Shown: positions 13,826 to 34,435, counted from the stretch's first letter. The stretch is 34,736 nt of DNA from Rhodobiaceae bacterium (GCA_028285165.1 JANQQB010000447.1:1-34736), one strand, 5' to 3'. The notes: generated by a model not told the origin, from the sequence alone. Numbers and translations: made by a program.

Positions 13826-15691
13826 GTGAAAAAAGCCGCGTTGCCCCTCGCCGTATGTGCGGGATTGTCCCTGGCACTTATCCTGCCTCTTGGAGCCGAC
13901 GCGGCCAAGGCCGAGGAAGAACCGAAATGGCGGCATGGCACGTCATTGATGGGGTCGATCAAGTATCCGCCGGATTTTCCGCATTTTGACTACGTCAATC
14001 CGCAGGCGCCAAAGGGCGGCCGGGTGCGCCTTTCGGCGACAGGGACCTTTGACACCTTCAATTTTGTCATTCCGAAAGGCCGCTCCGCCGCCGGCATCGG
14101 CCTGATCTATGATTCCCTGATGGATTCCGCCTTGGACGAAATCTCCGCGGAATACGGCCTGATCGCAGACGGTATGCGCTATCCGGAGGACTATTCCTGG
14201 GTCGAATACCGCATCAATCCCAAGGCCCGCTGGCATGACGGCAAGCCGATCACGGCGGAAGATGTCGTATGGTCGTTCGACGTGCTCACAACGAACAATC
14301 CGAGCCAGAAATTCTATTATCGCCACGTGACGTCGGCGAGCGTCGCGCGGCCGGGGATCGTACGGTTCGATTTCGACCAGACGGGCAACAGGGAATTGCC
14401 GCAGATCGTCGGACAATTGTCGGTCTTGCCGAAGCATTACTGGGAGGCGGTCGGTGCCAGCGGCAATCCGCGCAACATCCTGGAAAGCACGCTGGAGCCG
14501 CCGCTCGGCTCCGGTCCCTACCGGATCAAGAGTTTCAAGGCTGGCCGTTCCGTTACGTTCGAGCGGGTCAATGATTACTGGGCCAAGGACCTGAACGTCG
14601 CGATCGGCAAGAACAATTTCGATGAGGTCGTTTACGAGTATTTCCGCGACACCAACACCCTGCTCGAAGCCTTCAAGGGCGACCAGTACGACTTCCGTTC
14701 GGAGAATTCGGCAAAGAACTGGGCGACCGGTTACAAGTTCCCCGGTGTCGAGAAGGAACGCGTGGTCCTGGAGACATTTCCGGAAGTGTCGTCGGGGATC
14801 ATGCAGGCTTTTGTCGTCAACCTCAGGCGCGACAAGTTCAGCGATCCCCGCGTCCGACGCGCGCTGAACTACGCGTTCGATTTCGAAACGCTGAACCGTA
14901 CGATCTTCTTCGGTCAGTACAAGCGCATCTATTCCTATTTTGCCGGCACCGAACTGGCGTCCAAGGGCCTGCCGGAAGGCCTTGAACTGGAAATCCTGGA
15001 GACGGTGCGCGACAAGGTCCCCGAGGAGGTGTTCACGACGCCCTTCACCAACCCGATCGGGGGAGACACCAACAAACTGCGGGACAATCTGCGCAATGCG
15101 GTCGCGCTCCTGAAGGAAGCCGGCTGGGAATTCCGCAATCGCAAGCTGGTCAATTCCGAAACCGGCGAACCGTTTGTCATCGAATACCTTGCCGCCGACC
15201 CGAATTCGGAACGCATCGTCCTGCCCTACCGCTCCAATCTTGAGCGCATCGGCATCACGCTCAATTTGCGCATCGTCGACACGTCGCAATACATCAATCG
15301 TCTGCGGGCCTTCGATTTCGACATGATCACCACCGGTTGGGGTCAGTCGCTGTCTCCCGGCAACGAGCAATTGTTCTATTTCGGCACCGAGGCGGCCGAA
15401 AACAATTCGTCGCGGAACTATCCGGGCATCAAGGATCCCGCCGTTGACGCCCTGATCCAGCGTGTGATTTTTGCCAAGGACCGGGAGGAGCTTGTTGCCG
15501 CGACAAAGGCGCTCGACCGTGTGCTCCTGGCGAACCATTTTGTCATTCCGCAATTCTACATCGACTACAGCCGCACCGCTCGGTGGGATCGGTTCTCGCA
15601 CCCCGAGCCCTTGCCGACATATTCCTACGGCTTCCCGACGATCTGGTGGTGGGACGAGGAAAAAGCCGCCGCCGTGGAGGCAAGGAAATGA
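13826..15691 (+). CDS. yejA: YejA-type extracellular solute-binding protein, family 5 (first copy)
   Basis: Periplasmic binding protein of a microcin C / oligopeptide ABC importer; 621 residues. It begins with GTG (ribosome-binding site GGGAG, 7 nt upstream) and has a Sec signal peptide with likely cleavage after ADA or AKA around residue 27-31. The SBP_bac_5 body includes HGTSLMGSIKYPPDFPHFDYVNPQAPKGGRV, MRYPEDYSWVEYRINPKARWHDGKPITAEDV and PPLGSGPYRIKSF, all typical of YejA. The stop overlaps the start of the second binding protein by 4 bp (ATGA). In Brucella and Sinorhizobium, YejABEF is linked to resistance to host antimicrobial peptides; the same role here is inference. Confidence 0.93.
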   Translation: MKKAALPLAVCAGLSLALILPLGADAAKAEEEPKWRHGTSLMGSIKYPPDFPHFDYVNPQAPKGGRVRLSATGTFDTFNFVIPKGRSAAGIGLIYDSLMDSALDEISAEYGLIADGMRYPEDYSWVEYRINPKARWHDGKPITAEDVVWSFDVLTTNNPSQKFYYRHVTSASVARPGIVRFDFDQTGNRELPQIVGQLSVLPKHYWEAVGASGNPRNILESTLEPPLGSGPYRIKSFKAGRSVTFERVNDYWAKDLNVAIGKNNFDEVVYEYFRDTNTLLEAFKGDQYDFRSENSAKNWATGYKFPGVEKERVVLETFPEVSSGIMQAFVVNLRRDKFSDPRVRRALNYAFDFETLNRTIFFGQYKRIYSYFAGTELASKGLPEGLELEILETVRDKVPEEVFTTPFTNPIGGDTNKLRDNLRNAVALLKEAGWEFRNRKLVNSETGEPFVIEYLAADPNSERIVLPYRSNLERIGITLNLRIVDTSQYINRLRAFDFDMITTGWGQSLSPGNEQLFYFGTEAAENNSSRNYPGIKDPAVDALIQRVIFAKDREELVAATKALDRVLLANHFVIPQFYIDYSRTARWDRFSHPEPLPTYSYGFPTIWWWDEEKAAAVEARK

Positions 15692-17583
15692 GTGCCGCGC
15701 GGTCCGCATCCGCCGCACCCGATCGCCGGACGGTCCTGAAACTGGCGGCGGCATCGGCGCTGGTACCGGGTTTCGCGGTCACGGCCGGAACGACACCGGC
15801 ACGGGCCGCCGACGGCGGCGCTCACGGATTATCGGTTTTCGGCGATCTGAAATATGGCTCGGACTTTTCGCATTTTTCCTATGCGGATCCCGCAGCGCCG
15901 AAGGGCGGCCGCCACGTGACGACGCCCTCGACATGGGCGTTCAACCAGAGCCCGCTGACCTACAACACCTTCAACGGGTTTGTGCTGAAGGGCGATGCGC
16001 CGCCGCGTATCGAGATCACCTTCGATTCCCTGATGGTGAGGGCGCTCGACGAACCGGATGCCGTCTACGGGCTTGTTGCCCGGTCGGTATCGGTCTCCGA
16101 TGACGGCAACGCCTACACGTTCGACCTGCGCCCCGAGGCCCGCTTCCATGACGGATCGCCGCTTACGGCAGAAGACGTAGCTTTTGCCGTCACGCTTCTG
16201 AAGGACAAGGGGCACCCGAACATCGGCCAGGTCCTGCGCGAACTGGAAAGCGTCGAAGCTGTCGCGCCCGATCGTGTCGTGTTCACGTTCACGGGCCGTC
16301 AGTCGCGCGATCTGCCGCTGTTCGTCACGCAATTGCCGATCCTGTCCAAGGCGTATTACAGCGAGGTGGATTTCGAGGCATCGACGCTCGTGCCGCCGCT
16401 CGGGTCCGGACCCTACAAGGTCGGTGATTTCGGGGTCGGCCGGTATGTCGACTACGAGCGGGTCGAGGATTGGTGGGCCAAGGACCTGCCGGTCTCTGTC
16501 GGCCATTACAATTTCGACGTCATCCGGCTCGAATTCTTTCGCGATCGCCAGGTCGCGTTCGAGGCCTTCAAGAAGGGCAGTCTGACGCTCCGGGAGGAGT
16601 TTACCTCCAAGACCTGGGCGACCGAGTACAATTTCCCGGCTGTCACCGAGGGCCGTGTCGTGCGCGAGAACTTCCCCGACGACCGGCCGTCCGGCGCGCA
16701 AGGGTTTTTCCTCAACACGCGACGGGCCGTCTTTGCCGATCCGCGCGTTCGCGAAGCGCTGGACCATGCGTTCGATTTCGAATGGTCGAACAAGAACCTG
16801 TTTTTCGACCTCTACAAGCGCACCGAATCGTTTTTCGAAAACTCGACCATGAAGGCATCCGGACCGCCGTCGGCGGACGAACTGGTGCTGCTTGAGCCGT
16901 TCCGCGGCTCGGTCCCCGACGAAGTGTTCGGCGAACCCTATGTGCCGCCCGTCTCTGACGGGTCCGGCCAGGATCGGCGGCTTTTGCGCCGCGCCTCGCA
17001 ATTGCTGACAGAGGCCGGATGGAAACGCTCCGGCGACATGGTGCGCAACGAGGCCGGCAACACGCTTGATATCGAATTCATGGAGCGGTCCAAACAGTTC
17101 GAACGCATCGCGCTGCCGTTCATCAAGAACCTGAGGCTGTTGGGCGTCAATGCGCGCTTCCGATTGGTCGATCCGGCGCAATTCCAGTCGCGGCTGAAAG
17201 ACTTCGATTTCGACGTAACCACCCGGCGCTATGCGCTGTCGTCGACGCCCGGCGAATCCATCCGTCAGTTCTGGGGATCGGCGGCCGCCGGCATTTCCGG
17301 TTCGAACAACCTTTCCGGCATTCGCAGCGACGCGATCGACGCGATGATCGAGAAGATCATCGAGGCGCCCGACCGTCCGTCGCTGGAGGTTGCGGCGCGT
17401 GCGCTCGACCGCCTGTTGCGGGCCGGCCGCTACTGGGTGCCGCAATGGTACAAGGGGTCCCACAACATGGCCATGTGGGATGTCTACGGGTATCCAGAGA
17501 CGAAACCGAAACACGGCTTTCCCGTCGACAGCGTCTGGTGGCGTGATGCGGCAAAGGCTGACGCGATCGGTTTCCAGGGATAA
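15688..17583 (+). CDS. yejA: YejA-type extracellular solute-binding protein, family 5 (second copy, Tat-type signal)
   Basis: A second binding protein of 631 residues, homologous to its neighbour throughout (FGDLKYGSDFSHFSYADPAAPKGG, ARFHDGSPLTAEDVAF, PPLGSGPYKVGDF). Its N-terminus differs: PDRRTVLKLAAASALVPGF carries the twin-arginine motif, so it is likely exported folded by Tat. The ATG at 15688 is chosen because AAGGAA precedes it and it overlaps the first gene by 4 bp; the frame is open to 15583 but that part is antisense-like extension. The pair probably arose by duplication and may widen the peptide range of one permease. The permease genes follow after 64 bp. Confidence 0.93.
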   Translation: MSAARSASAAPDRRTVLKLAAASALVPGFAVTAGTTPARAADGGAHGLSVFGDLKYGSDFSHFSYADPAAPKGGRHVTTPSTWAFNQSPLTYNTFNGFVLKGDAPPRIEITFDSLMVRALDEPDAVYGLVARSVSVSDDGNAYTFDLRPEARFHDGSPLTAEDVAFAVTLLKDKGHPNIGQVLRELESVEAVAPDRVVFTFTGRQSRDLPLFVTQLPILSKAYYSEVDFEASTLVPPLGSGPYKVGDFGVGRYVDYERVEDWWAKDLPVSVGHYNFDVIRLEFFRDRQVAFEAFKKGSLTLREEFTSKTWATEYNFPAVTEGRVVRENFPDDRPSGAQGFFLNTRRAVFADPRVREALDHAFDFEWSNKNLFFDLYKRTESFFENSTMKASGPPSADELVLLEPFRGSVPDEVFGEPYVPPVSDGSGQDRRLLRRASQLLTEAGWKRSGDMVRNEAGNTLDIEFMERSKQFERIALPFIKNLRLLGVNARFRLVDPAQFQSRLKDFDFDVTTRRYALSSTPGESIRQFWGSAAAGISGSNNLSGIRSDAIDAMIEKIIEAPDRPSLEVAARALDRLLRAGRYWVPQWYKGSHNMAMWDVYGYPETKPKHGFPVDSVWWRDAAKADAIGFQG

Positions 17584-23120: not shown

Positions 23121-24776
23121 TTATGAATTGCCGGCCTGGTTAGTCTCCCCAAGACTGAGCCATCTGTTTTCTTGTGCATCGAATGAGCCGGCGCGGAGGT
23201 CGGTTGCGTCACCGACGAGCGAGCGCTTTTCGATCTTGTTCGACGCGGTCTTCGGCATGTGCGCCGTATAGGCAATGAAGCGCGGCACCTTGAAGGCCGC
23301 AAGCTGGCTCCTGCAATGCTCAAGAACACGTTCCGGCGGGCAATCAGCCGGCGTTCGATCGGGTTTCAGCTGGATATAGGCTTTGACCTCTTCGCCGCGT
23401 CTGGCATCTGGCACCGGTACGCAGGCTGCCTCCTCGACCTCCGGCAACAGGCACAACACGGCCTCGACCTCACGGGCGGCGATATTCTCCTGTGAGCGCC
23501 GGATCATGTCTTTGAGGCGCCCGACGAGGTATAGAAAGCCGTCTTCGTCGATCCGGAAGAGATCGCCGGTCCGGAACCAGCCCCCATCCTCAAACACAGC
23601 CTGATTGGCGTCCGGGCGGTTCCAATACCCCTGAAACAGAGCGCGGCCGCGGACCCATAACTCGCCGATGCCGCCGGACTCGACCGGCTGCCCGGCATCG
23701 TCGCGGACCGATGTTTCCCGGAACGGGGCGGCGAAACCGACACTGCCGCTGTCGAAGCGATCGGCGAATTCCGGCAACATCCAGGTCCCCAAACCGATTT
23801 CGGTCATGCCGAATCCTTCCCGCGCGACCGCACCGAACCGGCGTTTGAAGTCCCGGCATATGTCCGGTGGCCAGCCGAAGGTCGCCACCTGGATCAGGGC
23901 CGTATCGCATGCATCGCCGCCTTCTTCCTGGCGCGCCATCAGCAACGGGAAGAGGCACCATTCGATTGCATGCGTCTTGATCCAGCCGATATAGCGGCTT
24001 GCTGACAGGCCCGGTGCCATGACGAGCGTTCCGCCATTCATAAACGTCTTCAGCGTGATCCATTGCGGATCCATGTAGAAATAGGGCTGGGCGGACAGCA
24101 GGCGCCGTGGCGCGGCGTGATCCCATGACCGGGCCGCATGCGCGAGAACAAGCCAGTACTCGTGTGACAGCATGCAGCCTTTCGGAAATCCGGTTGTGCC
24201 CGACGTGTACTGGATGTTCATCAGGTCGTCCGGAGTTACGGTCGGCCCAAGGCAGGAGCGCACGTCGATCCCATTCAGGGCCGATTCCAGGCTCTCCTGC
24301 CCGGAATGGCCGTCGCCATTTACGACGAGGATCGCGTCGTTCGGGAGCGTTGCCGGCCGCTCGGGCATGTCCAGGAAGGTTCGGACCAGGTCCGCGTTCA
24401 CGAAAGCGAACCGGATTCCGGCGTCGTTTGCCACGAAGCTGATTTCTGCTGGCGTGTATCGCGTATTGATGGGGACATGGACGGCGCCGATTTTTGCCAA
24501 GGCGATCCAGACAAGCGGATAGGCAAGGCAATTGGGAAGCATGACCGCAACCCGATCTCCTTTGGCGATCCCCCTGTCTTTCAGCAGGCATCCGATGGCA
24601 TCGGACTTCAGCTTCACATCGCTGTAGGTCGCCCGCTCGTTCCGCTCGAAGACCTCGATCGCCACTGCCGTTCCGAGCTCGGCGGCAACGGCATCCACAA
24701 ATGCTCCGATCGTCGTGGATTGGAAGGTCGCCTCAACGGCGCGGTTTTTGGCGGCTGTCCTGTCTCGCCACGTCAT
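23121..24776 (-). CDS. AMP-forming acyl-CoA synthetase (CaiC-like / fatty-acyl-CoA ligase family)
   Basis: Activates a carboxylic acid with ATP and CoA; cytoplasmic, about 551 residues. Motifs of the ANL superfamily are all present: P-loop YTSGTTGFPKG (about 190-200), GFGMTEIGLG, FRTGDLFRIDEDGFLYLVGRLKDM and the catalytic C-terminal Lys in TASNKIEKRS. The N-terminal pattern RVAVMLPNCLAYPLVWIALAKIGA recalls carnitine/crotonobetaine-CoA ligase and medium/long-chain ligases; the acid cannot be read from sequence. The frame is open to 25391, but this runs antisense through tetR. AGGAG precedes twin ATGs at 24779 and 24776, spacing 3 and 6 nt, so 24776 is preferred. Divergent from tetR across a shared palindrome. 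Confidence 0.93.
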   Translation of the reverse strand: MTWRDRTAAKNRAVEATFQSTTIGAFVDAVAAELGTAVAIEVFERNERATYSDVKLKSDAIGCLLKDRGIAKGDRVAVMLPNCLAYPLVWIALAKIGAVHVPINTRYTPAEISFVANDAGIRFAFVNADLVRTFLDMPERPATLPNDAILVVNGDGHSGQESLESALNGIDVRSCLGPTVTPDDLMNIQYTSGTTGFPKGCMLSHEYWLVLAHAARSWDHAAPRRLLSAQPYFYMDPQWITLKTFMNGGTLVMAPGLSASRYIGWIKTHAIEWCLFPLLMARQEEGGDACDTALIQVATFGWPPDICRDFKRRFGAVAREGFGMTEIGLGTWMLPEFADRFDSGSVGFAAPFRETSVRDDAGQPVESGGIGELWVRGRALFQGYWNRPDANQAVFEDGGWFRTGDLFRIDEDGFLYLVGRLKDMIRRSQENIAAREVEAVLCLLPEVEEAACVPVPDARRGEEVKAYIQLKPDRTPADCPPERVLEHCRSQLAAFKVPRFIAYTAHMPKTASNKIEKRSLVGDATDLRAGSFDAQENRWLSLGETNQAGNS

Positions 24777-24808
24777 CATACACTCCTGATCGGCCAGACA
24801 GTTTCGGA

Positions 24809-24828
24809 ATTTGACAATTCTGTCAAAT
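24809..24828. promoter_or_regulatory. TetR operator, copy 1 (CoA ligase / tetR divergent promoter)
   Basis: ATTTGACA at 24809-24816 and TGTCAAAT at 24821-24828 form a perfect 8-bp inverted repeat around a 4-nt spacer. It contains TTGACA, a consensus -35, on both strands. It sits in the 141-bp gap between the divergent CoA-ligase and tetR genes. Near-identical palindromes occur at 25563 and 32830. Confidence 0.85.
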
Positions 24829-24917
24829 AATTCCAGTGGATTCCGAGCGCCGGTCGATATCGTCGGCGACCGGCCTGCTATAGGCAGGGGCGGGACGCGG
24901 CAGCCAGGGAGGGTGCA

Positions 24918-25562
24918 GTGAGCGAACAGAAGCCGGAAAACCTGATCCGGCCGGCCCGATACCAGAAGCGGCGTGACGCCATCCTGGACGGTGCTCTGAA
25001 GATCTTTTCCGAGCGTGGCATCGAGTCCACCGGTCTGAAGGAAATTGCCGCGCATCTCGGGCTGACCCACCCAGCGCTTTACCATTACTTCAGATCCAAG
25101 GAGCAGATCGTTTTCGAGGCCGTCGAAAAGGCGATGCTGGATCTGATTGCGGTCCTGGAGGACAGCCAGAAAGGCGTTCCCGCGCACGCGCCGACACGCC
25201 TGCTTGTGCTGTGCAGCGCGCATATCCTGTATGAATTGAAAGAAAGCAGCATCATTCCATTCGTCAATTCCCTGCTTTACGGCCCGCTGCGCGACGCCAC
25301 CACGCTCGACGAAGCGCAAAAGGAGCGTATCCAGGATCTCCAGCGCATCGTTCTGGATGCCTATCGCAAAATCATTGCTGCCGGTCAGCAATCAGGGGAT
25401 TTCATCGAAGGGTCGGCCAGCGTGGCCGCGTTCGGGGTTCTGGGCACTGTCTCTTACACGGTTTTCTGGTACCGCGCTGACGGCGCGCTTTCGGCAGAGG
25501 CCGTCGCACGGACCGTTGCGGCGCAGGCCCTGCGGTCCGTCAGTCGGCTGGTTGAAGGCTAA
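24918..25562 (+). CDS. TetR-family transcriptional regulator of the catabolic island
   Basis: A 214-residue repressor-type regulator. The N-terminal HTH (about 15-65) reads AILDGALKIFSERGIESTGLKEIAAHLGLTHPALYHYFRSKEQI, strongly TetR; the all-helical C-terminal part is the usual ligand-binding and dimerisation region. It starts with GTG, with GGGAGG 6 nt upstream. Its own promoter region contains operator copy 1, and operator copy 2 begins at the base right after its stop codon, so autorepression and control of the TRAP operon are likely. The inducer is probably the imported acid or its CoA thioester (inference, by analogy with FadR/PaaR-type TetR regulators). Confidence 0.93.
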   Translation: MSEQKPENLIRPARYQKRRDAILDGALKIFSERGIESTGLKEIAAHLGLTHPALYHYFRSKEQIVFEAVEKAMLDLIAVLEDSQKGVPAHAPTRLLVLCSAHILYELKESSIIPFVNSLLYGPLRDATTLDEAQKERIQDLQRIVLDAYRKIIAAGQQSGDFIEGSASVAAFGVLGTVSYTVFWYRADGALSAEAVARTVAAQALRSVSRLVEG

Positions 25563-25582
25563 AATTGACAAGATTGTAAAAT
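25563..25582 (+). promoter_or_regulatory. TetR operator, copy 2 (TRAP operon promoter)
   Basis: AATTGACA at 25563-25570 and TGTAAAAT at 25575-25582 flank a 4-nt spacer. It matches copy 1 at 15 of 20 positions with identical spacing. TTGACA at 25565-25570 can be the -35, with TAATCC (25590-25595) as a weak -10 at 19 bp. It starts immediately after the tetR stop codon and lies 41 bp before dctP. Confidence 0.75.
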
Positions 25583-25623
25583 TCTGACCTAATCCCTCGC
25601 AATCACAAGAGGGAGACAGTCGC

Positions 25624-26673
25624 ATGATGAAGCATGCATGCAGAACGATCGCGGCGACGGCCGTGCTGGCAGCCGGCGCGACTGCGCCGGCATTTGCTGA
25701 ACACAGTTTTAAGGTCATCGGAACCTGGGGCGTGGGCGCCATGTACAAGGAACATGAAGCGCCCCTGTGGGAGACCGCGATTCCCGAAGCGTCCGGCGGC
25801 AAGGTGACGGGCGAAATCAAGGCGATGACGGATCTCGGGCTGAAGGGATTTGAAACCGTCAAGCTCTTGAAGACGGGCGTCTATGACGTCGGCTTTGGCG
25901 CCTACACCTATATCGCATCCGGCAATCCGGTGTTCGAGGGCATCGATCTGGCCCTAACACCGAAGAACACCGACGAGGCGCGGCGGTTGGTCGAGGCTTA
26001 CGATCCTGTGGTGAAAAAGGCGTTTGCCGACATTCACGGCGTCGAATTGCTCGCGAGCTATCCGTTCCCCGCCCAGGTCTTGGTCTGCCGCGACCCGTTC
26101 GAAAGTCTTGCCGATTTGAAGGGGCGCAAGATCCGCGTCTATTCCACGACGCTTGGCGACATGGCCGAGGGGTTCGGCGGTGTCAGCGTGTCCATTCCCC
26201 TGTCGGAAGTGGTGCCGGCGCTGCAGCGTGGCGTGGTTGATTGCGGCGTATCATCCGGAGTCTCGATGTATCATGCCAAATGGCAAGACGTCGTGAATTA
26301 CCTCTACGAAACACCGGTCTCGGCCGGAATTGCGTTTCTTGCCATGAACAAGGCCAAGTTCGACGCGCTCGACGAAGAAACGCAAACGCTATTGACCGAG
26401 CAATCGCGGATCTTTGCAGACAAGGCCTGGGCGGCATTGAAGGATTCCGAACAGCAGGGCATTTCCTGTCTCACCGGTGAGGGCGGATCCTGCCGGTATG
26501 GCGATCCGGCCGGCATGACGCTCGTCAAGGCCAATCCGGACGACGAACCCCTGCGTCGCTCGATACTCGAAGACTACGTGCTCAAACGGTATGCGGAGCG
26601 GTGCGGTGCCGACTGCGCTGCCGAGTGGAATGCCACGGCCGGTGCCGTGATCGGCCTGTCGGCCACCCAATAG
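25624..26673 (+). CDS. dctP: TRAP transporter substrate-binding protein (DctP family)
   Basis: Periplasmic receptor of a TRAP importer, 349 residues, with a signal peptide cleaved after AFA (residue 25). DctP-family features include KVTGEIKAMTDLGLKGFETVKLLKTGVYDVGFG and the SLADLKGRKIRVYST segment; Arg171 in that segment occupies the place of the conserved Arg that binds the ligand carboxylate in DctP proteins. So the substrate is probably an organic acid. The C-terminal part has four cysteines (GISC, GSC, RCGADC) that may form disulfides, unusual for the family. GAGGGAG lies 8 nt before the first of two adjacent ATGs. First gene of the TRAP operon under operator copy 2. Confidence 0.93.
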   Translation: MMKHACRTIAATAVLAAGATAPAFAEHSFKVIGTWGVGAMYKEHEAPLWETAIPEASGGKVTGEIKAMTDLGLKGFETVKLLKTGVYDVGFGAYTYIASGNPVFEGIDLALTPKNTDEARRLVEAYDPVVKKAFADIHGVELLASYPFPAQVLVCRDPFESLADLKGRKIRVYSTTLGDMAEGFGGVSVSIPLSEVVPALQRGVVDCGVSSGVSMYHAKWQDVVNYLYETPVSAGIAFLAMNKAKFDALDEETQTLLTEQSRIFADKAWAALKDSEQQGISCLTGEGGSCRYGDPAGMTLVKANPDDEPLRRSILEDYVLKRYAERCGADCAAEWNATAGAVIGLSATQ

Positions 26674-26681
26674 CAGCACCG

Positions 26682-27308
26682 ATGTCCCTCCCAAGCAGCG
26701 CAAAGCGGCCCGCTTTCGAGCGGGCCGCTCAAATCCTGGTCTGGATCGGCGGTGCGGCGCTGATCGTAATGGCGTTTGTCATCACTATCGAAGCGCTGAT
26801 GCTGAAATTTTTCAACCATGCGTTCGGCGGCGTGGATGAGATCACGAAATACGTCTTTGCCTGCGCCTCTTCCTGCGCGTTTGCCTACGCCGTCTTCGAA
26901 AAGGCGAACATCCGCATCGACATCGTTCGCAACCGCTTCGGGGCGCGCATTCGCCTGGTATTCGACATCATCGCGTGGGCGGTTTTTGTTCTGGTATTCG
27001 CGGTCATTGCCTATCGCGGCGTGGAACTGGCCTGGCAATCCTTCGAAAGCGGCGCGCGCTCGATCACCCCGAAACGCATGTTGCTGTTCATCCCGCAGGG
27101 AATTTTTGCCTTCGGTCTGGTCATGACGGTCCTTGCCGGGCTCGTTATCGGCTGGCGCGCATTTCGTCTGCTCTCGAATGGCCGGTCCGACGCGGCCGCG
27201 ACCCTGTTGTCGCCGTCCAGCGAAGTGGATCGCGAATTGCCCGGTTCAGCGGAATCACGCCGTCTCGAGGCAGCCGATACCGACACCGGCAACGGGCACG
27301 AGCGATGA
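26682..27308 (+). CDS. dctQ: TRAP transporter small permease (DctQ family)
   Basis: Inner-membrane subunit of 208 residues with four predicted helices (about 16-38, 50-70, 88-110, 130-155). It carries DctQ-type segments FGGVDEITKYVFACASSCAFAYAVFEKANIRIDIV and ARIRLVFDIIAWAVF. A long hydrophilic C-terminal tail (about 160-208, ending SRRLEAADTDTGNGHER) is longer than usual. The start at 26682 is 9 nt after the dctP stop; the frame is open back to 26601 but there it overlaps dctP. The stop overlaps dctM by 4 bp. It pairs with DctM in the membrane complex. Confidence 0.93.
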   Translation: MSLPSSAKRPAFERAAQILVWIGGAALIVMAFVITIEALMLKFFNHAFGGVDEITKYVFACASSCAFAYAVFEKANIRIDIVRNRFGARIRLVFDIIAWAVFVLVFAVIAYRGVELAWQSFESGARSITPKRMLLFIPQGIFAFGLVMTVLAGLVIGWRAFRLLSNGRSDAAATLLSPSSEVDRELPGSAESRRLEAADTDTGNGHER

Positions 27309-28591
27309 TCGGAGTAAGCCTTTCCTTGCTGCTTGGCCTTCTGGCGCTTTCCGTGTCAGTGACGGCCGCGCTCGGCATGATGGCCATTCTGCTCACCACC
27401 TTTTTTACCGATATTCCAATCGACCGAATGACAGGCGAAATCGCCTGGCAGCATATGGCGTCGGAAACACTGGTCGCGATTCCGTTTTTCATCCTGCTCG
27501 GTGAGCTTCTGTTGCGCGCCGGCGTCGCGGAGCGCATGTACGCGGCGTTGACCCAATGGCTGTCCTGGCTGCCGGGCGGCACGATGCATGCCAATATCGG
27601 GTCCTGCGCATTGTTTGCCGCTACGTCCGGCTCGAGCGTGGCGACGGCCGCTACCATCGGAACGGTCTCTCTGCCGGAAATCCGCAAGCGCGGCTACAAT
27701 GAACGTCTGTTCCTCGGCACTCTCGCGGCCGGGGGCACGCTCGGCATATTGATCCCGCCGTCGGTCGCCTTCATCGTCTACGGCGTTCTGACCGAAACCT
27801 CGATACCGCGGCTTTACCTTGCTGGCATGGTTCCCGGGATCCTGCTTGCCGGCTTGTTCATGGTGCTGATCGGCGTGATCTGCGTTGTCCGGCCGGCGGC
27901 AGGAGGACGGCCGAACCCGACCAACTGGGATGCCCGGATCGCGTCGCTACCGGATCTCCTGCCGCCGCTCTTCATCTTTGCCGTGGTGGTGCTGACCATC
28001 TATGCCGGCATTGCGACGCCGACCCAGGCTGCTGCCTTTGGCGTCGTCGCGGCGCTGGGATTGGCGTGGTGGTACGGCGTTCTTGATCTGACCATGTTGC
28101 GGCTTGCCGTCGAGGGCACGATGCGGACGACCGCCATGGTTGTCGCAATCATCTTGACGGCGCTGCTCCTGAATTTCGTGCTGACCTTCCTGGGCATTTC
28201 CGACCAGATCACCAACGCCGTGCTGGGGCTCGATCTCAGCCCGATCGGCCTCCTCCTTGCTATCGCTGTCTTTTACCTGATCCTCGGCTGCTTCATGGAG
28301 GGGTTCTCCATCATGTTGATCACCGTGCCGATCATCGTGCCGCTGGTAAAGGCGATCGGCTATGACCCGATCTGGTTCGGCGTGATGTTGACCCTGCTCC
28401 TCGAGGCGGCCCTCATCACGCCGCCGATCGGCGTCAACCTGTACGTCGTTCAAGGTGTGCGCAAACGCGGGTCCATCACCGACGTCATTGTCGGTGCGAC
28501 GCCCTTTGTGCTGGTGATTTTTTTAATGGTCGTGGCCCTGATTCTCTTCCCCGAAATCGCGTTGTGGCTGCCGTCGGCCGTGTTTGACTGA
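27305..28591 (+). CDS. dctM: TRAP transporter large permease (DctM family)
   Basis: Inner-membrane transport subunit of 428 residues with about 12 hydrophobic segments, driving uptake by an ion gradient (sodium in characterised TRAP systems). DctM signatures: SETLVAIPFFILLGELLLRAGVAERMY, ANIGSCALFAATSGSSVATAATIGTVSLPEI, GTLGILIPPSVAFIVYGVLTETSI and LLLEAALITPPIGVNLYVVQG. The start ATG overlaps the dctQ stop (ATGA), so the frame open from 26975 is not used. The maoC-like gene follows after 13 bp, tying transport to metabolism in one transcript. Confidence 0.96.
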   Translation: MIGVSLSLLLGLLALSVSVTAALGMMAILLTTFFTDIPIDRMTGEIAWQHMASETLVAIPFFILLGELLLRAGVAERMYAALTQWLSWLPGGTMHANIGSCALFAATSGSSVATAATIGTVSLPEIRKRGYNERLFLGTLAAGGTLGILIPPSVAFIVYGVLTETSIPRLYLAGMVPGILLAGLFMVLIGVICVVRPAAGGRPNPTNWDARIASLPDLLPPLFIFAVVVLTIYAGIATPTQAAAFGVVAALGLAWWYGVLDLTMLRLAVEGTMRTTAMVVAIILTALLLNFVLTFLGISDQITNAVLGLDLSPIGLLLAIAVFYLILGCFMEGFSIMLITVPIIVPLVKAIGYDPIWFGVMLTLLLEAALITPPIGVNLYVVQGVRKRGSITDVIVGATPFVLVIFLMVVALILFPEIALWLPSAVFD

Positions 28592-28604
28592 GGAGACCCT
28601 GTTC

Positions 28605-29126
28605 ATGAGCGAACCGAAAGCGCTCGATCTGTCAGATTTTGCCATGCTTGAAGGGACCAGCGGCAGAGCATTGGGCGTGTCGCGATGGTTCGACATCACG
28701 CAATCCGACATCGATCGGTTCGGCGAAGTCACGCGCGACCGCGATGCCATGCATATGGATCCGGAATGGGCGGCCGCGCACTCCCCGTACGGGACGACAA
28801 TTGCCTACGGGTTTCAGACATTGGCCATGCTGACTGCGATGCTGAACGATATGGTGCCGCGCGGCACGCGGGAAGCCTATAAGATCAATTATGGCTTCGA
28901 CCGGATCCGGTTGTTGGCGCCCGTGCCGGCCGGCAGCCGAATTCGCGGTGCCGCTGTTTTGCGAGCAGTCCGAATGCGGGATGCGGAAAGCCATGTCGTC
29001 ACCGCGGAAATCACTGTTGAGATCGAAGACGCTGAACGGCCGGCGCTTGTGGCGGATTGGCTGTTTCTTGTGGTCAACGCCGAACGCGGCAAGCGCCGTC
29101 CGGACATGAACGGGGAGGCGGCCTGA
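28605..29126 (+). CDS. MaoC-like (R)-hydratase / hot-dog dehydratase
   Basis: A 173-residue single hot-dog domain protein. Enoyl-CoA hydratase 2 catalytic residues fit the D-x4-H spacing: Asp45 and His50 in TRDRDAMHMDPEWA. Further family signs are the SPYGTTIAYGFQTLAM helix and the KINYGFDRIRLLAPVPAGSRIRGAAVL strand pair. Such proteins hydrate 2-enoyl-CoA thioesters, so it should act after one of the two CoA ligases. GAGGAG lies 9 nt before the ATG; an earlier in-frame TTG at 28584 overlaps the dctM stop and is not favoured. Its stop overlaps the next start by one base (TGATG). Confidence 0.9.
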   Translation: MSEPKALDLSDFAMLEGTSGRALGVSRWFDITQSDIDRFGEVTRDRDAMHMDPEWAAAHSPYGTTIAYGFQTLAMLTAMLNDMVPRGTREAYKINYGFDRIRLLAPVPAGSRIRGAAVLRAVRMRDAESHVVTAEITVEIEDAERPALVADWLFLVVNAERGKRRPDMNGEAA

Positions 29127-29758
29127 TGGAGCGGATCGGATTTTTGGTGTTTGAGGGGGTCGAGGAACTGGACCTCGTCGGTCCCTGGGAAATGGCCACG
29201 ATGTGGCACACCTATGCCGACGGACCGCATTGTGTGACCGTTGCCGAACGCTCCGGCCCGCATGCCTGCGCCAAGGGCCTGACGCTGTCGGCTGAATACG
29301 ATTTTACGACCTGCCCGCAGCTCGACGCGCTGCTGATTCCCGGTGGGTTTGCCGCCTTCGATGAAATGGCCAACGAAACGCTCGTTCGGTTCGTTGCCGG
29401 ATGCGCATCCGACGACCGCCCGGTCCTGTCGGTCTGCACCGGAAGTTTCATACTGCACGCTGCCGGTCTGCTTGAGGGCCGGCAGGCCACGACCCACTGG
29501 AAGGCGATCGGCAGGTTACGCGATGCGGGCGTGGAGGTTGTCGAAGAGCGTTATGTGCGGGACGGACCGATCTGGAGTTCCGCCGGTGTCTCGGCGGGCA
29601 TCGATCTGATGCTGCATTTCATTGCCGAGGTGGACGGACCCGAGGCGGCGGCCATTGTGCAGCACAACGCCGAATATTATCCGCAGGCGAACGTGTACGG
29701 AACACAGCACCTGGCCGACGGCATGCCGGCATACATGAATTCCCTGGCAAAGCGCTGA
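29126..29758 (+). CDS. DJ-1/PfpI family protein, isonitrile hydratase-like
   Basis: A 210-residue protein with the nucleophile elbow VCTGSFIL (Cys104), the region IGFLVFEGVEELDLVGPWE (Asp16) and ATTHWKAIGRL. These segments line up with what I remember of Pseudomonas putida isonitrile hydratase InhA (FPGVQQLDLTGPYE, SVCTGS, ATTHW), whose Cys and neighbouring Thr plus an Asp are needed to turn an isonitrile into an N-substituted formamide. The same fold occurs as the sensor half of GlxA-type AraC regulators, but no DNA-binding domain is present here. The ATG overlaps the maoC-like stop, and a formamidase-like gene follows after 8 bp. Family secure, activity inferred. Confidence 0.88.
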   Translation: MERIGFLVFEGVEELDLVGPWEMATMWHTYADGPHCVTVAERSGPHACAKGLTLSAEYDFTTCPQLDALLIPGGFAAFDEMANETLVRFVAGCASDDRPVLSVCTGSFILHAAGLLEGRQATTHWKAIGRLRDAGVEVVEERYVRDGPIWSSAGVSAGIDLMLHFIAEVDGPEAAAIVQHNAEYYPQANVYGTQHLADGMPAYMNSLAKR

Positions 29759-29766
29759 TCCCTCCG

Positions 29767-31956
29767 ATGGCCGATCGGCGTTCGGAAAATCGCAAGGACA
29801 TCGTCGGCTATACCGGCAAGCTTTCGGTGCTGCCCGGAGAGACGCTCGATCTGAAGGTTTCCGCCTATGGACCGGAAACCTATGAGCTGTCGTGGCACCG
29901 CATCGAAGGCGCGCATTGGACCGATGTGGGAAGTGTGCCGGTCCTTCGGGACATGGCCTGCCAACCAAGCGGTCCGCGCACAATCCGTCGCCACGCAGTT
30001 CCGATCGGATCCTACATGACGGCACCGTTGCCGTTGTGCCTTCGGCATGTTCCGTCCTTTTCGGTGGGAGTGTTGGTCAAGCCCACCGGACCGCCGAAAC
30101 CGGTACGAACGCTCGTTTGCCTGGCGCCGGGAGACGGCAGCAGCCGTCTGAGGATCGTGCTCGACGATGCCAACCGGATTGCTGTTGCCCTCGGACAGGA
30201 AATCCTCGGCTCGGAAATCGGACCCGGACTGGCGGCCGATCGATGGACTGCGGTCGTCGTCGAGGTCGACAGGGGGGCGGGCCGCATGGCGGTCGCGCTG
30301 CAGGAAATGGGCATGCCGTCACCGGCGGTCATCGGGCTTGTTCTGGATACAGCCTGGCCAAAGCAGCCCTTCCGTGATTTCTATCTGGCCGCGTCCGTGT
30401 CCGACGACGGGATGCCGGCTGAATGTTTCAATGGCCGCCTCGAGACGCCCGTGATTGCGACGTGTAACGGCATGGAACTGGCGGCTGCCTTGATCGCCGG
30501 CCCGCAATCCGTGCGCCGCCTGGGGACGGCGCGTCTCGCCCACTGGGATTTTGCTGAGGCGATCGGATCGACGCGGGTCGTCGACAGGGGCCCGAGCCGG
30601 TGCGACGGCAGGCTCGTCAACGGACCGGACCGTGCCGTGACGGGGGCTTTCTGGGACGGCAGCGTGTTTTCTCCGCAGGCGGATCCCGACCAGTACGGCG
30701 CCGTGCACTTTCATGATGATGATCTGGAAGACTGTCGCTGGCCGACCAACGCCGTGTTGACGGTGCCGAACGCATGGCCCTCCGGTCTCTATGCGGCCCG
30801 TCTGAAAACCGGGGGTGGGGAGGACCTCGTCCCGTTTGTCGTCCGCGCCGCCCCTGCGCAGCGAAAGCGGGTGGCAATGCTTTTGCCGACTTGCACCTAT
30901 CTGTCCTACGCCAACGCAAAAAGCGCCATGCGCGGACCGGATTTCGGAATTGCGGACTACCCCGACGAAGGGTTTCTCGCCGAACACCCCGAGTTCGGCA
31001 AATCGCAATATGACCGGCACGCGGACGGTTCGCCGGTCATGGTATCGTCGCGTTTGCGACCGATCCTGACCATGCGGTTCGGCGTACGCCCGTGGGGATT
31101 GCCGGTCGATGCCTGGTTGCTTTCATGGCTCGCCCATGAAGGAGTCGATTATGATCTCCTGACCGACGAAGATCTGCACCGGGAGGGACTGGACGCGATC
31201 GACGGCTACGACGTCGTGCTCACCGGCAATCATCCGGAATACCATTCCCGTGAGATGCTGGATGCCCTGCAGGCGTTTGTCGAGCGGCGGGGACGCCTCA
31301 TGTATCTTGGTGGCAACGGCTTTTATTGGCGCATATCCGTTGCCGGCTCAGGGGCGCGCATCGAAGTGCGCCGGGCGGAAGATGGGACGCGCGCCTGGAT
31401 CGCGGAACCGGGCGAAGCGCATCATGCCATGGACGGCGCATACGGCGGCCTTTGGCGACGTCTCGGGCGGCCGCCCAACCGGCTCGTTGGCGTCGGATTT
31501 GCCGCACAGGGTTTTGACCGGAGCGGTTCTTATCGGGTTGTCGAGGGTGCCCGCGACGGCATAGCCGGCTTCGCCCTTGCAGGCATAGAGAGAGACACGT
31601 TCGGGGCTTTCGGCTGGCTGGGAGACGGCGCGGCGGGTCAGGAGATCGACCGCGCGGATCCGCGCCTCGGGACCGGCCGCGATAGTGTTGTCATCGCGTC
31701 GTCGGAGGGGCATCCGCCCTCCATGCTGCGTACGGTGGAGGAATTGCTGTCGACCCCGATGCCATTGAAGGATGCCAAGGCGCGGTCCGATATCGTGTTG
31801 CGTGCGGTGGAAGGCGGGGGCGCTGTATTCTCCGTAGGCTCCATGGCCTGGATCGGCGCCCTTGCCGAAAGCGGTTATGACAATGCAATTGCGCGCATGA
31901 CCGGCAATGTGTTGCGGCGCTTTCTGGACCCGAGGTCGATTGATCGGCGGTCTTGA
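29767..31956 (+). CDS. N,N-dimethylformamidase large (catalytic) subunit-like protein
   Basis: A 729-residue protein resembling DMFase large subunit (DmfA2). The N-terminal part has a LamG/concanavalin-like beta domain (about 95-290, WTAVVVEVD, DFYLAASVSDDG, LAHWDFAE, CDGRLVNGP). The C-terminal part (about 330-725) is the DMFA2 catalytic domain (LPTCTYLSYANAK, SQYDRHADGSPV, VLTGNHPEYHSREMLDAL, GRLMYLGGNGFYW). Known DMFase uses iron held by two Tyr and one Glu; Tyr381, Tyr415 and Glu491 are candidates by motif and similar spacing. No signal peptide. No gene for a small subunit is found here, unlike dmfA1A2. It ends 5 bp from a convergent hydrolase. It likely hydrolyses an N-formyl or other amide. 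Confidence 0.85.
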   Translation: MADRRSENRKDIVGYTGKLSVLPGETLDLKVSAYGPETYELSWHRIEGAHWTDVGSVPVLRDMACQPSGPRTIRRHAVPIGSYMTAPLPLCLRHVPSFSVGVLVKPTGPPKPVRTLVCLAPGDGSSRLRIVLDDANRIAVALGQEILGSEIGPGLAADRWTAVVVEVDRGAGRMAVALQEMGMPSPAVIGLVLDTAWPKQPFRDFYLAASVSDDGMPAECFNGRLETPVIATCNGMELAAALIAGPQSVRRLGTARLAHWDFAEAIGSTRVVDRGPSRCDGRLVNGPDRAVTGAFWDGSVFSPQADPDQYGAVHFHDDDLEDCRWPTNAVLTVPNAWPSGLYAARLKTGGGEDLVPFVVRAAPAQRKRVAMLLPTCTYLSYANAKSAMRGPDFGIADYPDEGFLAEHPEFGKSQYDRHADGSPVMVSSRLRPILTMRFGVRPWGLPVDAWLLSWLAHEGVDYDLLTDEDLHREGLDAIDGYDVVLTGNHPEYHSREMLDALQAFVERRGRLMYLGGNGFYWRISVAGSGARIEVRRAEDGTRAWIAEPGEAHHAMDGAYGGLWRRLGRPPNRLVGVGFAAQGFDRSGSYRVVEGARDGIAGFALAGIERDTFGAFGWLGDGAAGQEIDRADPRLGTGRDSVVIASSEGHPPSMLRTVEELLSTPMPLKDAKARSDIVLRAVEGGGAVFSVGSMAWIGALAESGYDNAIARMTGNVLRRFLDPRSIDRRS

Positions 31957-31961
31957 AGCTT

Positions 31962-32780
31962 TCAGGCGGCGCGGGTCAATGAATGCCGGTCGACATGCGA
32001 TCGCAGCATCCGTCCGAGGCCATCCGGCATCTCCACATTGGGCTGGTGTCCGATATCCGGCAGGATCGCCAATTCCGCAGCCGCAATGCCGCTTGCGATC
32101 GTCTGGGACTTTGTCGGCGGATTGGCGCCGTCGAGATCACCGACAAAGACCAGGGTCGGGCACAGGACATGCGCGAGCATATGCCGGATGTCGACACGGC
32201 GCAGGATCGGGGCCGCTGCCCGGGCGACAGCCGCACCGTCATTGCTGATGATCAAGCGGCGTTCCTGTTCGAGCAGGGTGCGGTTCCTGGGATCGTTCCG
32301 GAACGGTGCACCGTAGAGGATTTCCATCAAATGGTCGGCAACGCTCTCCGGATCTTTGGCGAATCCGTCGAGCAGCAGGCTTTCATACTTCTCGACCTTT
32401 TCAATTGGTTCGGCTTCGGCCGAAGCGCCGCCGACGGCCAGCGACAGGAAGCGGCCCGGAAATTGTGCGGCATTGCGGATTCCGGTCACGCCGCCGACCG
32501 ACATTCCGATCCAGTGAAAGCGGTCGACAGCCAATGCATCGGCAACCGACATGATGTCCCGGGCCAGCATGTCGACATCATATCCACCGAGCGGTTTGGC
32601 ACTGCGTCCTTGTCCGCGCCAGTCGACCGTCACGCAACGATAGCGATCGCTGAGATGGGCGATCTGCTGTTCGTACATGCGCCCGGAAAAGAAGAGAGCA
32701 TGGGTCAGGAAAACGGTTTCCGCGCCGTCGCCGAAGCATTCCACATACAGGTCGGTTCCGTTTATCGGCATCAATGGCAT
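31962..32780 (-). CDS. Alpha/beta-fold hydrolase (enol-lactonase/esterase-like)
   Basis: A 272-residue cytoplasmic hydrolase with a complete triad: nucleophile Ser94 in IGMSVGG, acid Asp217 (or Asp215) in VFVGDLDGANPP, and His245 in PDIGHQPNVE. The TVDWRGQGRSAKP segment after the first strands and overall length recall 3-oxoadipate enol-lactonase and related C-C or ester hydrolases; the substrate is open. It could also act as a thioesterase or amidase in the island pathway. It is divergent from the second CoA ligase, with operator copy 3 in the 116-bp gap to that gene's preferred start. It has no clear ribosome-binding site; ATGs at 32780 and 32771 are both possible starts. Confidence 0.9.
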   Translation of the reverse strand: MPLMPINGTDLYVECFGDGAETVFLTHALFFSGRMYEQQIAHLSDRYRCVTVDWRGQGRSAKPLGGYDVDMLARDIMSVADALAVDRFHWIGMSVGGVTGIRNAAQFPGRFLSLAVGGASAEAEPIEKVEKYESLLLDGFAKDPESVADHLMEILYGAPFRNDPRNRTLLEQERRLIISNDGAAVARAAAPILRRVDIRHMLAHVLCPTLVFVGDLDGANPPTKSQTIASGIAAAELAILPDIGHQPNVEMPDGLGRMLRSHVDRHSLTRAA

Positions 32781-32829
32781 GACACGTCACTCACTTTCTG
32801 GCGGCAATCAAGGCAAACACTTTGCTATG

Positions 32830-32849
32830 AATTTACAAATATGTAAATT
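32830..32849. promoter_or_regulatory. TetR operator, copy 3 (hydrolase / second CoA ligase divergent promoter)
   Basis: AATTTACA at 32830-32837 and TGTAAATT at 32842-32849 are perfect 8-bp inverted repeats around a 4-nt spacer. It matches copy 1 at 14 of 20 positions with the same geometry. TTTGCT (32821-32826) and TAAATT (32844-32849), 17 bp apart, could be the promoter of the CoA ligase, with the operator over its core. Confidence 0.75.
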
Positions 32850-32896
32850 TTAGGATCGCTGTGAAGCTCAATAAGTTCGGACGGGAGCATTGGTCC

Positions 32897-34435
32897 ATGA
32901 CAGTGCCGCGCCTTGCCGGAATGCACGACTATGTCGACTATTATGCCCGCCGGACGCCGGCGCAGATGGCCTGCATATGGAAGGAAGGCGAGCTTTCCTA
33001 CGCTGGACTTGAAAGAGCGGTCAACGCATGCGTGGCCATGCTGAAACGCCAGGGAATATGCCCGGGCAACCGTGTGGCGGTGCTTGCAGCGGCGGGCCCG
33101 ACTTACCTGATCGCGCTTATGGCCGTATCGCGACTCGGTGCAATTTACGTTGGTGTCAATCCCAAGCACACGACACGAGAGATTGCAGACCTGATAGAAG
33201 ACACCGACCCCGCAATGTTCGTTGTTGAAACCGACACGGCCGATCGGACCCGGACCGACCGAATCCGCAGCGCTGGCTTCCCTGGCCCGGTCATGGAACT
33301 TGGTGGTCCGGATGATCTCCCGGACGCTGAAGGATCGGAGGATTCCCATCCTGCGGCGAGCGACGACATTGCGGTAATCGTCTTCACGTCAGGCTCAACG
33401 GGTCGGGCCAAGGGTGCGGCCCTGCACCACGGCGGTCTGATCGAGGCGGCGATCGGTCAATACGCCCATTTGGACGCCCGGATGGATCGTCCCGCCCGGT
33501 ATTTGTCCAACCTGCCGATCAACCACGTCGGCGGTGTCATGAACCTGACCCTTGGCGCCCTTGTCGGCGGCGGCAGCCTGGTCTTTCGGGATCGGTTCGA
33601 TCCGCTTGAAACCCTGCGCGTCCTGGAAACGGACGCGGTGACGACCTGGCTGCAGGTGCCGGCCATGTTCACCCTTGTTGCAAACCATCCTGAGTTTGAC
33701 CGAACCGATTTTTCGTCCGTGCGCACGATCTGCATCGGCGGCGGTCCGGTTTCCGCGCCGACACTCGCCAGATTGCGGTCGACCGGCGCCGACGTCTTTG
33801 TTGAATACGGCCAGACGGAAGTGATGAGTTCCCTCTCCTATTCCGAATTCAATGCTCCGGACGAGGTGCTCCTGAACACGATCGGCCGGTTCGATCCCCG
33901 GTTCGAGACGCGCATCGCCGGCCCGGACAACCAGGTCTGTCCGATCGATATCGTGGGTGAGATTCAGGCCAGGGGCAATTGCACGCTGCGCCGCTATTGG
34001 GGCAACGAGCAAGCAACGGCCGCCGCGTTTACGTCCGATGGCTGGCTGAAGACCGGAGACCTTGCCCTGCAACGTCCCGACGGCAACATCGTGCTCAAGG
34101 GCCGGAACAGCGAAATGATCAAGTCGGCCGGTTACAATGTCTATCCGCGAGAGGTGGAACAGGTTCTGGAGACCCATCCGAACGTCGCCGAGGTCGTTGT
34201 CTTTGGAATCCCCGATCCCGTCTATTCCGAGCGCGTCGTGGCCGCAATCGAACTGCGCGATACCGAGAATACGCCCACGGAAGCGGATCTCGTTGCGTGG
34301 TGTCGCGCCCAACTTGCCCGGTACAAACTGCCGCGTGCGTTTGTGATGTCAGAAAGCCTCCCGAGACTGCCGAACGGCAAACTCGACCGGCCGGCGGTCC
34401 GTCGGCTGGGTGAACGGATCGAACAGACCGCCTGA
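32897..34435 (+). CDS. AMP-forming acyl-CoA synthetase (second copy)
   Basis: A 512-residue ANL-superfamily ligase, distinct from the one at 23121. Motifs: P-loop FTSGSTGRAKG (about 163-173), EYGQTEVM, GWLKTGDLALQRPDGNIVLKGRNSEM, SAGYNVYPREVEQVL and catalytic Lys in LPNGKLDRP. The upstream GTG at 32861 has AGGA before it and would add 12 residues. The ATG at 32897 has GGGAG 9 nt upstream and leaves room for the predicted promoter, so it is preferred. Having two ligases suggests two acids are activated, for example the imported acid and one released later in the pathway. Substrate unknown. Confidence 0.92.
   Translation: MTVPRLAGMHDYVDYYARRTPAQMACIWKEGELSYAGLERAVNACVAMLKRQGICPGNRVAVLAAAGPTYLIALMAVSRLGAIYVGVNPKHTTREIADLIEDTDPAMFVVETDTADRTRTDRIRSAGFPGPVMELGGPDDLPDAEGSEDSHPAASDDIAVIVFTSGSTGRAKGAALHHGGLIEAAIGQYAHLDARMDRPARYLSNLPINHVGGVMNLTLGALVGGGSLVFRDRFDPLETLRVLETDAVTTWLQVPAMFTLVANHPEFDRTDFSSVRTICIGGGPVSAPTLARLRSTGADVFVEYGQTEVMSSLSYSEFNAPDEVLLNTIGRFDPRFETRIAGPDNQVCPIDIVGEIQARGNCTLRRYWGNEQATAAAFTSDGWLKTGDLALQRPDGNIVLKGRNSEMIKSAGYNVYPREVEQVLETHPNVAEVVVFGIPDPVYSERVVAAIELRDTENTPTEADLVAWCRAQLARYKLPRAFVMSESLPRLPNGKLDRPAVRRLGERIEQTA

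Follow-up and report, generated by a model that had tools for sequence, protein, structure and literature searches.

Among the described enzymes of the DMFA2_C family, Paracoccus N,N-dimethylformamidase (DMFase; PDB 6lvb) has an unusual iron site of two tyrosines and one carboxylate (Y399, Y440 and E521) with an essential H519 and N547, and it needs a separate 15-kDa small subunit, the large subunit alone being inactive; its relatives in the family hydrolyse formamides (PMC7686228). N-acetyl-(R)-beta-phenylalanine acylase (PDB 8huy, 8i5a) is a single-chain enzyme with the same domain. Beta-valine, a beta-amino acid, is degraded via a coenzyme A (CoA) ligase and hydratase-fold ammonia lyases (BvaA/BvaB; PMC4619459). 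Here we describe a ten-gene block at positions 23121-34435 of a contig from a Rhodobiaceae bacterium (GCA_028285165.1, JANQQB010000447.1), in which a DMFA2_C amidase stands with a tripartite ATP-independent periplasmic (TRAP) importer, two CoA ligases, a MaoC-type enzyme, a DJ-1/PfpI protein, an alpha/beta hydrolase and a putative TetR-family repressor. The window analysed is this whole contig (C482, 34,736 bp), part of a 5.9-Mb assembly of 508 contigs (93% complete, 5.5% contaminated). We propose that the block is a substrate-inducible regulon that takes up and catabolises a single amide-linked carboxylic acid, with an N-acyl (beta-)amino acid as the likeliest candidate, and we give this proposal about an even chance of being right.

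Pfam searches recovered all ten genes, and the families and coordinates named in a first-pass annotation, made from the sequence by a model, were correct. The starts of the CoA ligase genes were refined: that of ligase 1 lies at about 24779, and alignment with relatives indicates that ligase 2 probably starts at ATG 32897 rather than at GTG 32861, the start of the longest open reading frame. The features, in order along the window, are:

23121..24779, minus strand: CoA ligase 1, AMP-binding, acyl/aryl-CoA synthetase type (Pfam AMP-binding 9.9e-65; orthologues at 57-60% in four relatives)
24810..24827, no strand assigned: operator 1, TTTGACAattcTGTCAAA, in the divergent gap between CoA ligase 1 and tetR (pattern and shuffles; kept in four relatives)
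24918..25562, plus strand: TetR-family putative repressor (Pfam TetR_N and TetR_C_24; 56-59% in relatives)
25564..25581, no strand assigned: operator 2, ATTGACAagatTGTAAAA, 42 bp upstream of dctP, containing a TTGACA hexamer
25624..26673, plus strand: DctP, TRAP solute receptor with the KIRV arginine R171 (Pfam; 66-70% in relatives; R171 invariant)
26682..27308, plus strand: DctQ, small TRAP permease (Pfam; 55-62% in relatives)
27305..28591, plus strand: DctM, large TRAP permease (Pfam, TIGR00786 above cut-off; 72-73% in relatives)
28605..29126, plus strand: MaoC hot-dog enoyl-CoA hydratase-type enzyme with a D45-x4-H50 dyad (Pfam 2.4e-17; Rv0130 match; alignment of five)
29126..29758, plus strand: DJ-1/PfpI protein, C104 and D16 invariant in five (Pfam; nearest solved relative isonitrile hydratase InhA)
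29767..31956, plus strand: DMFA2_C amidase/acylase, single chain, iron site Y381/Y415/E491 with H489 and N517 (Pfam; alignments; PMC7686228)
31962..32780, minus strand: alpha/beta hydrolase, PcaD/esterase-like (family searches; 67-70% in relatives)
32831..32848, no strand assigned: operator 3, ATTTACAaataTGTAAAT, in the divergent gap between the hydrolase and CoA ligase 2
32897..34435, plus strand: CoA ligase 2 (Pfam 1.3e-67; 54-57% in relatives)

The first-pass annotation held that its reading would fail if these genes were kept together in no other genome. We found the set intact in four further genomes from at least two orders, with the operators conserved. A tblastn search of plasmids gave a Ciceribacter thiooxidans locus in which the DMFA-like enzyme (51%) and CoA ligase 1 (59%) lie 5 kb apart and all ten genes are present at 51-73% identity. 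Scanning genome contigs with a two-sequence DctP alignment located ten of ten genes in each of Antarcticimicrobium luteum, a Notoacmeibacter metagenome-assembled genome and Rhizobiales AFS003181; the genome-contig scan with the DMFA protein as query found no cluster. The order tetR-dctPQM-maoC-pfpI-amidase is identical in the four relatives, while the pair formed by the hydrolase and CoA ligase 2 lies on the opposite side of the block, inverted relative to the window, with its operator retained. Because the genes recur jointly with 15 alignable operators despite this moved and inverted module, the comparison provides strong sequence-level evidence that the ten genes form one functional unit. 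The proposal of a single operon from dctP to the amidase also held: in the window, DctQ and DctM overlap by 4 bp and MaoC and PfpI by 1 bp, and the gaps between dctP and dctQ, dctM and maoC, and pfpI and the amidase are about 8-13 bp. Spacing in the four relatives is comparably tight (MaoC/PfpI overlap of 4 bp, pfpI-amidase gap of 7 bp).

Regulation of the block can be read from its promoter gaps. A consensus palindrome, WTTKACA-N4-TGTMAAW (WTTKACANNNNTGTMAAW), has three exact matches in the window, compared with zero in shuffles, and these are the only three in the 5.9-Mb assembly. Each promoter gap of the block holds one of them (ligase 1/tetR, tetR/dctP and hydrolase/ligase 2). The operator first proposed to be common to the two divergent units is thus matched exactly in both of their gaps, and a third site stands before dctP. 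Operators occur at the same three places in all four relatives, and the 15 sites of the five genomes fit a single consensus, nine of whose 18 positions are invariant. With a site at every promoter gap, none elsewhere in the genome and conservation in relatives, the block is predicted to be a dedicated TetR regulon. The dctP and tetR operators contain a TTGACA hexamer, so that a bound repressor would cover a −35-like element; for this reason we infer that the TetR protein may block the promoters at the three operators. A general promoter scan of the sequence performed no better than chance. One further operator-like match, at 33143-33160 inside CoA ligase 2, was discarded as coding sequence with one mismatch; it is present in the relatives too and probably reflects a conserved coding stretch.

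The amidase gives the clearest indication of chemistry. Y399, Y440, E521, H519 and N547 of Paracoccus DMFase correspond to Y381, Y415, E491, H489 and N517, all invariant in the five orthologues, so every iron ligand and both essential residues are kept. The alignment to N-acetyl-(R)-beta-phenylalanine acylase nevertheless runs almost end to end, including the N-terminal region: with phmmer it covers residues 11-723 (E = 2e-108), whereas the DMFase match spans only 220-722, and in a profile search it covers 7-723 of 731 residues at E = 5e-131 versus E = 3e-97 for dimethylformamidase. Within the locus, no small-subunit gene adjoins the amidase gene (gaps of 8 bp upstream and 5 bp downstream), in contrast to the two-subunit DMFase, and its setting is a CoA-dependent acid pathway. 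The label ‘DMFase-like’ given by the first-pass annotation therefore stands for the iron site, but the protein as a whole looks like the single-chain N-acyl-amino-acid acylase type. The acylase is a distant homologue, and we found no similar operon for it.

Among genomes of the order, 47 of 199 encode homologues of the DMFA2_C enzyme, as do 62 of 385 from the class, at about 34-48% identity; close orthologues are absent from these approximately 580 genomes. At about 60 DMFA2_C loci read in the order and class genomes, MaoC or PfpI homologues were beside the gene at none, which makes DMFA alone a poor marker of the cluster. A general association between DMFA and CoA ligases was likewise rejected: a ligase homologue was near four of the roughly 60 loci and adjacent only at L091, a chance-like frequency. 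That locus (L091:5824-10900), where the DMFA2_C gene is divergent to a homologue of ligase 1 (40%) and a crotonase-type enoyl-CoA hydratase, resembles a reduced version of the chemistry. At another (L101:1-18000, read by eye), a DMFA2_C gene lies among Rieske oxygenases, an aminotransferase, flavoproteins and a TRAP importer, which suggests that these amidases are widely used in catabolic islands. This variety of contexts bears on the idea that the block is a co-regulated mixed set, in which uptake and one acid pathway are combined with DMFA-like and PfpI enzymes that detoxify unrelated compounds. The steps of these two enzymes in the cluster are indeed putative, but in five of five genomes both genes sit closely spaced within the dctPQM-maoC operon, and we regard a mixed set as unlikely.

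The TRAP importer is complete, with P, Q and M components all assigned by Pfam. Its carboxylate-binding arginine, R171, is invariant in nine receptors and was equated with SiaP Arg-147 by motif; the conserved arginine of TRAP receptors selects carboxylates (PMC4646407). The DctP structure was predicted from an alignment without the plasmid row and reached a predicted local distance difference test score (pLDDT) of 85, and three pyroglutamate receptors (2pfy, 2pfz and 6wgm) appeared among its fold neighbours, at ranks 3, 5 and 9. These include DctP6/DctP7 (PDB 2pfz, 2pfy), which share the DctP fold and the conserved carboxylate-binding arginine with the window protein; at about 21% identity the likeness is one of fold. 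Outside the cluster, the TRAP system most similar to that of the window, in Pseudaminobacter arsenicus (L119:8616-18690; DctP 57%, DctM 72%), neighbours a flavin mononucleotide-dependent dehydrogenase, a glutathione S-transferase and a hydantoinase/oxoprolinase, not the amidase set, and another TRAP system lies near allantoinase and asparaginase. Taken with a gamma-glutamyltransferase in two relatives, these points could indicate a cyclic amide or gamma-glutamyl-type compound (pyroglutamate-like lactam acids) whose amide is opened or trimmed by the amidases. However, pyroglutamate needs neither two CoA ligases nor MaoC, the cluster is without an oxoprolinase and the identity to the pyroglutamate receptors is low, which leaves a lactam substrate rather unlikely. 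The genome as a whole has 33 matches to DctP-type TRAP receptors, a rich set of organic-acid importers.

Genes adjoining the block in the relatives offer a second line of clues. An M20 amidohydrolase (TIGR01891 above cut-off) adjoins the hydrolase gene in four of four (L108:7701-8846, L116, L117 and L118), an SBP_bac_5/dipeptide-type ATP-binding cassette (ABC) importer lies directly 3' of the amidase in four of four, and the gamma-glutamyltransferase adjoins CoA ligase 1 in two of the four. These extra genes are directed at amides or peptides and are clues to the substrate. Together with the conserved TRAP arginine and the intact iron site, they back the earlier suggestion of a carboxylic acid with an amide nitrogen. 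The yej peptide importer of the window is only 24-27% similar to the relatives’ ABC importer, over part of the receptor, and probably belongs to a separate, core cluster. This yej-type peptide ABC cluster (window 13826-17583) has two tandem SBP_bac_5 receptors.

Under the proposed reading, DctPQM would import the acid, and the single-chain Fe(III) acylase would split its amide, releasing a carboxylate and an amino acid. Both products would be activated by the two CoA ligases, which share about 28% identity and, given this distance, probably act on different acids. MaoC would then hydrate an enoyl-CoA or eliminate a beta-substituent, passing the product to ordinary beta-oxidation, and an acyl-CoA intermediate would release TetR. 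The DJ-1/PfpI protein and the alpha/beta hydrolase may handle side groups of the substrate or forms that precede it. A route that takes up a carboxylate, hydrolyses an amide, activates two acids with CoA and includes one hydration suits the breakdown of a two-acid amide, for example an N-acyl (beta-)amino acid. The beta-valine pathway likewise uses a CoA ligase and then a hydratase-fold enzyme on a beta-amino acid (PMC4619459), but these are PaaK-like and crotonase proteins rather than an AMP-binding acyl-CoA synthetase and MaoC, and that pathway is without the acylase and TRAP importer of the window cluster.

Several observations weigh against this scheme. DMFA2_C homologues are common and have many different neighbour genes, and because these contexts vary the family name does not fix a substrate; the N-acyl amino acid is a candidate only. 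MaoC carries a hydratase dyad, and ammonia elimination by it is putative. The scheme leaves PfpI and the alpha/beta hydrolase unexplained. Finally, the M20 gene and ABC importer of the relatives are absent from the window cluster, and the window’s genome has no close M20 homologue elsewhere (best 32%).

The PfpI protein points to a different chemistry. Its best solved match is the isonitrile hydratase InhA (PDB 6ni5, 3non; E = 6e-33), whose catalytic Cys101 and Asp17 align with C104 and D16, invariant in five; this match is not discriminating on its own. The Cys motif of InhA-like proteins occurs in GlxA-type regulators too, the InhA-like group is large with mostly uncharacterised members, and the PfpI fold model (pLDDT 47) was too poor for use. 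One could envisage isocyano-acid catabolism, in which hydration of an isonitrile acid by the DJ-1 protein gives the N-formyl compound, the iron amidase removes formate, and the resulting amino acid is CoA-activated and deaminated or oxidised. The position of pfpI directly before the amidase, 7-8 bp away in five of five genomes, fits hydration followed by deformylation, and the hydrolysis of formamides by DMFase relatives (PMC7686228) agrees with the second step. Bacteria also make isonitrile natural products with metal-binding activity (PMC10792529). Set against this, none of about 60 other DMFA2_C genes was near a PfpI homologue, which shows that the two do not generally go together, and in the known InhA route, as cited in PMC5391958, the hydratase is paired with an N-substituted formamide deformylase instead of a DMFA2_C enzyme. 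We therefore consider isocyano-acid catabolism distinctly doubtful, and formamide and isocyano substrates a conjecture. That the block constitutes a complete route for isocyano-carboxylic acids (for example, 3-isocyano acids from bacterial metallophores), running from import, hydration and deformylation to CoA activation and beta-oxidation, is quite improbable.

The MaoC D45/H50 dyad (D-x4-H) is aligned in all relatives, and the protein resembles Rv0130. MaoC proteins of the Rv0130 type handle (R)-3-hydroxyacyl chains. With a PcaD/lactonase-like hydrolase in the same cluster, this could suggest degradation of N-acyl-homoserine lactones or lipo-amino acids: the hydrolase would open the lactone, the acylase would free the fatty acid, and the CoA ligases and (R)-specific MaoC would degrade the chain. 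TRAP receptors usually bind small acids, though, the cluster is without an acyl-CoA dehydrogenase or thiolase, and PfpI is again unexplained. We judge lactone degradation very improbable.

As to how the amide-acid block reached its place, GC content gave no composition signal (61% in the block versus 62% in the rest of the window). In one of ten order relatives (L129), the PBP1 and YgjP genes come directly after polA, and here they lie about 25-30 kb from it; this arrangement would fit a gain, between polA and PBP1/YgjP, of the block together with other genes. In the other order relatives, polA has different neighbours or stands on too short a contig, so the earlier view of an accessory insertion between core genes is borne out by a single comparison and not by the rest. 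The plasmid location in Ciceribacter, a transposase adjoining the cluster in Notoacmeibacter and the lack of close amidase orthologues in the approximately 580 genomes together suggest that the cluster is accessory and mobile.

The first-pass annotation knew of no named pathway with this gene set, and we found no published pathway of the same composition in the open-access literature, a weak negative given that most subscription papers are missing there. The parts belong to known families; their combination and dedicated regulon were not found in that literature. The block is a conserved, self-contained predicted regulon with a genetic handle (one repressor and one operator type), and at its centre are two enzymes whose families are poorly understood. 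Its carriers include two named strains, Ciceribacter thiooxidans F43B and Antarcticimicrobium luteum 318-1, in which the substrate could be found directly. Identifying it would show what physiological role is played by a family of iron amidases that is widespread yet little characterised, and perhaps by a DJ-1-type hydratase as well.

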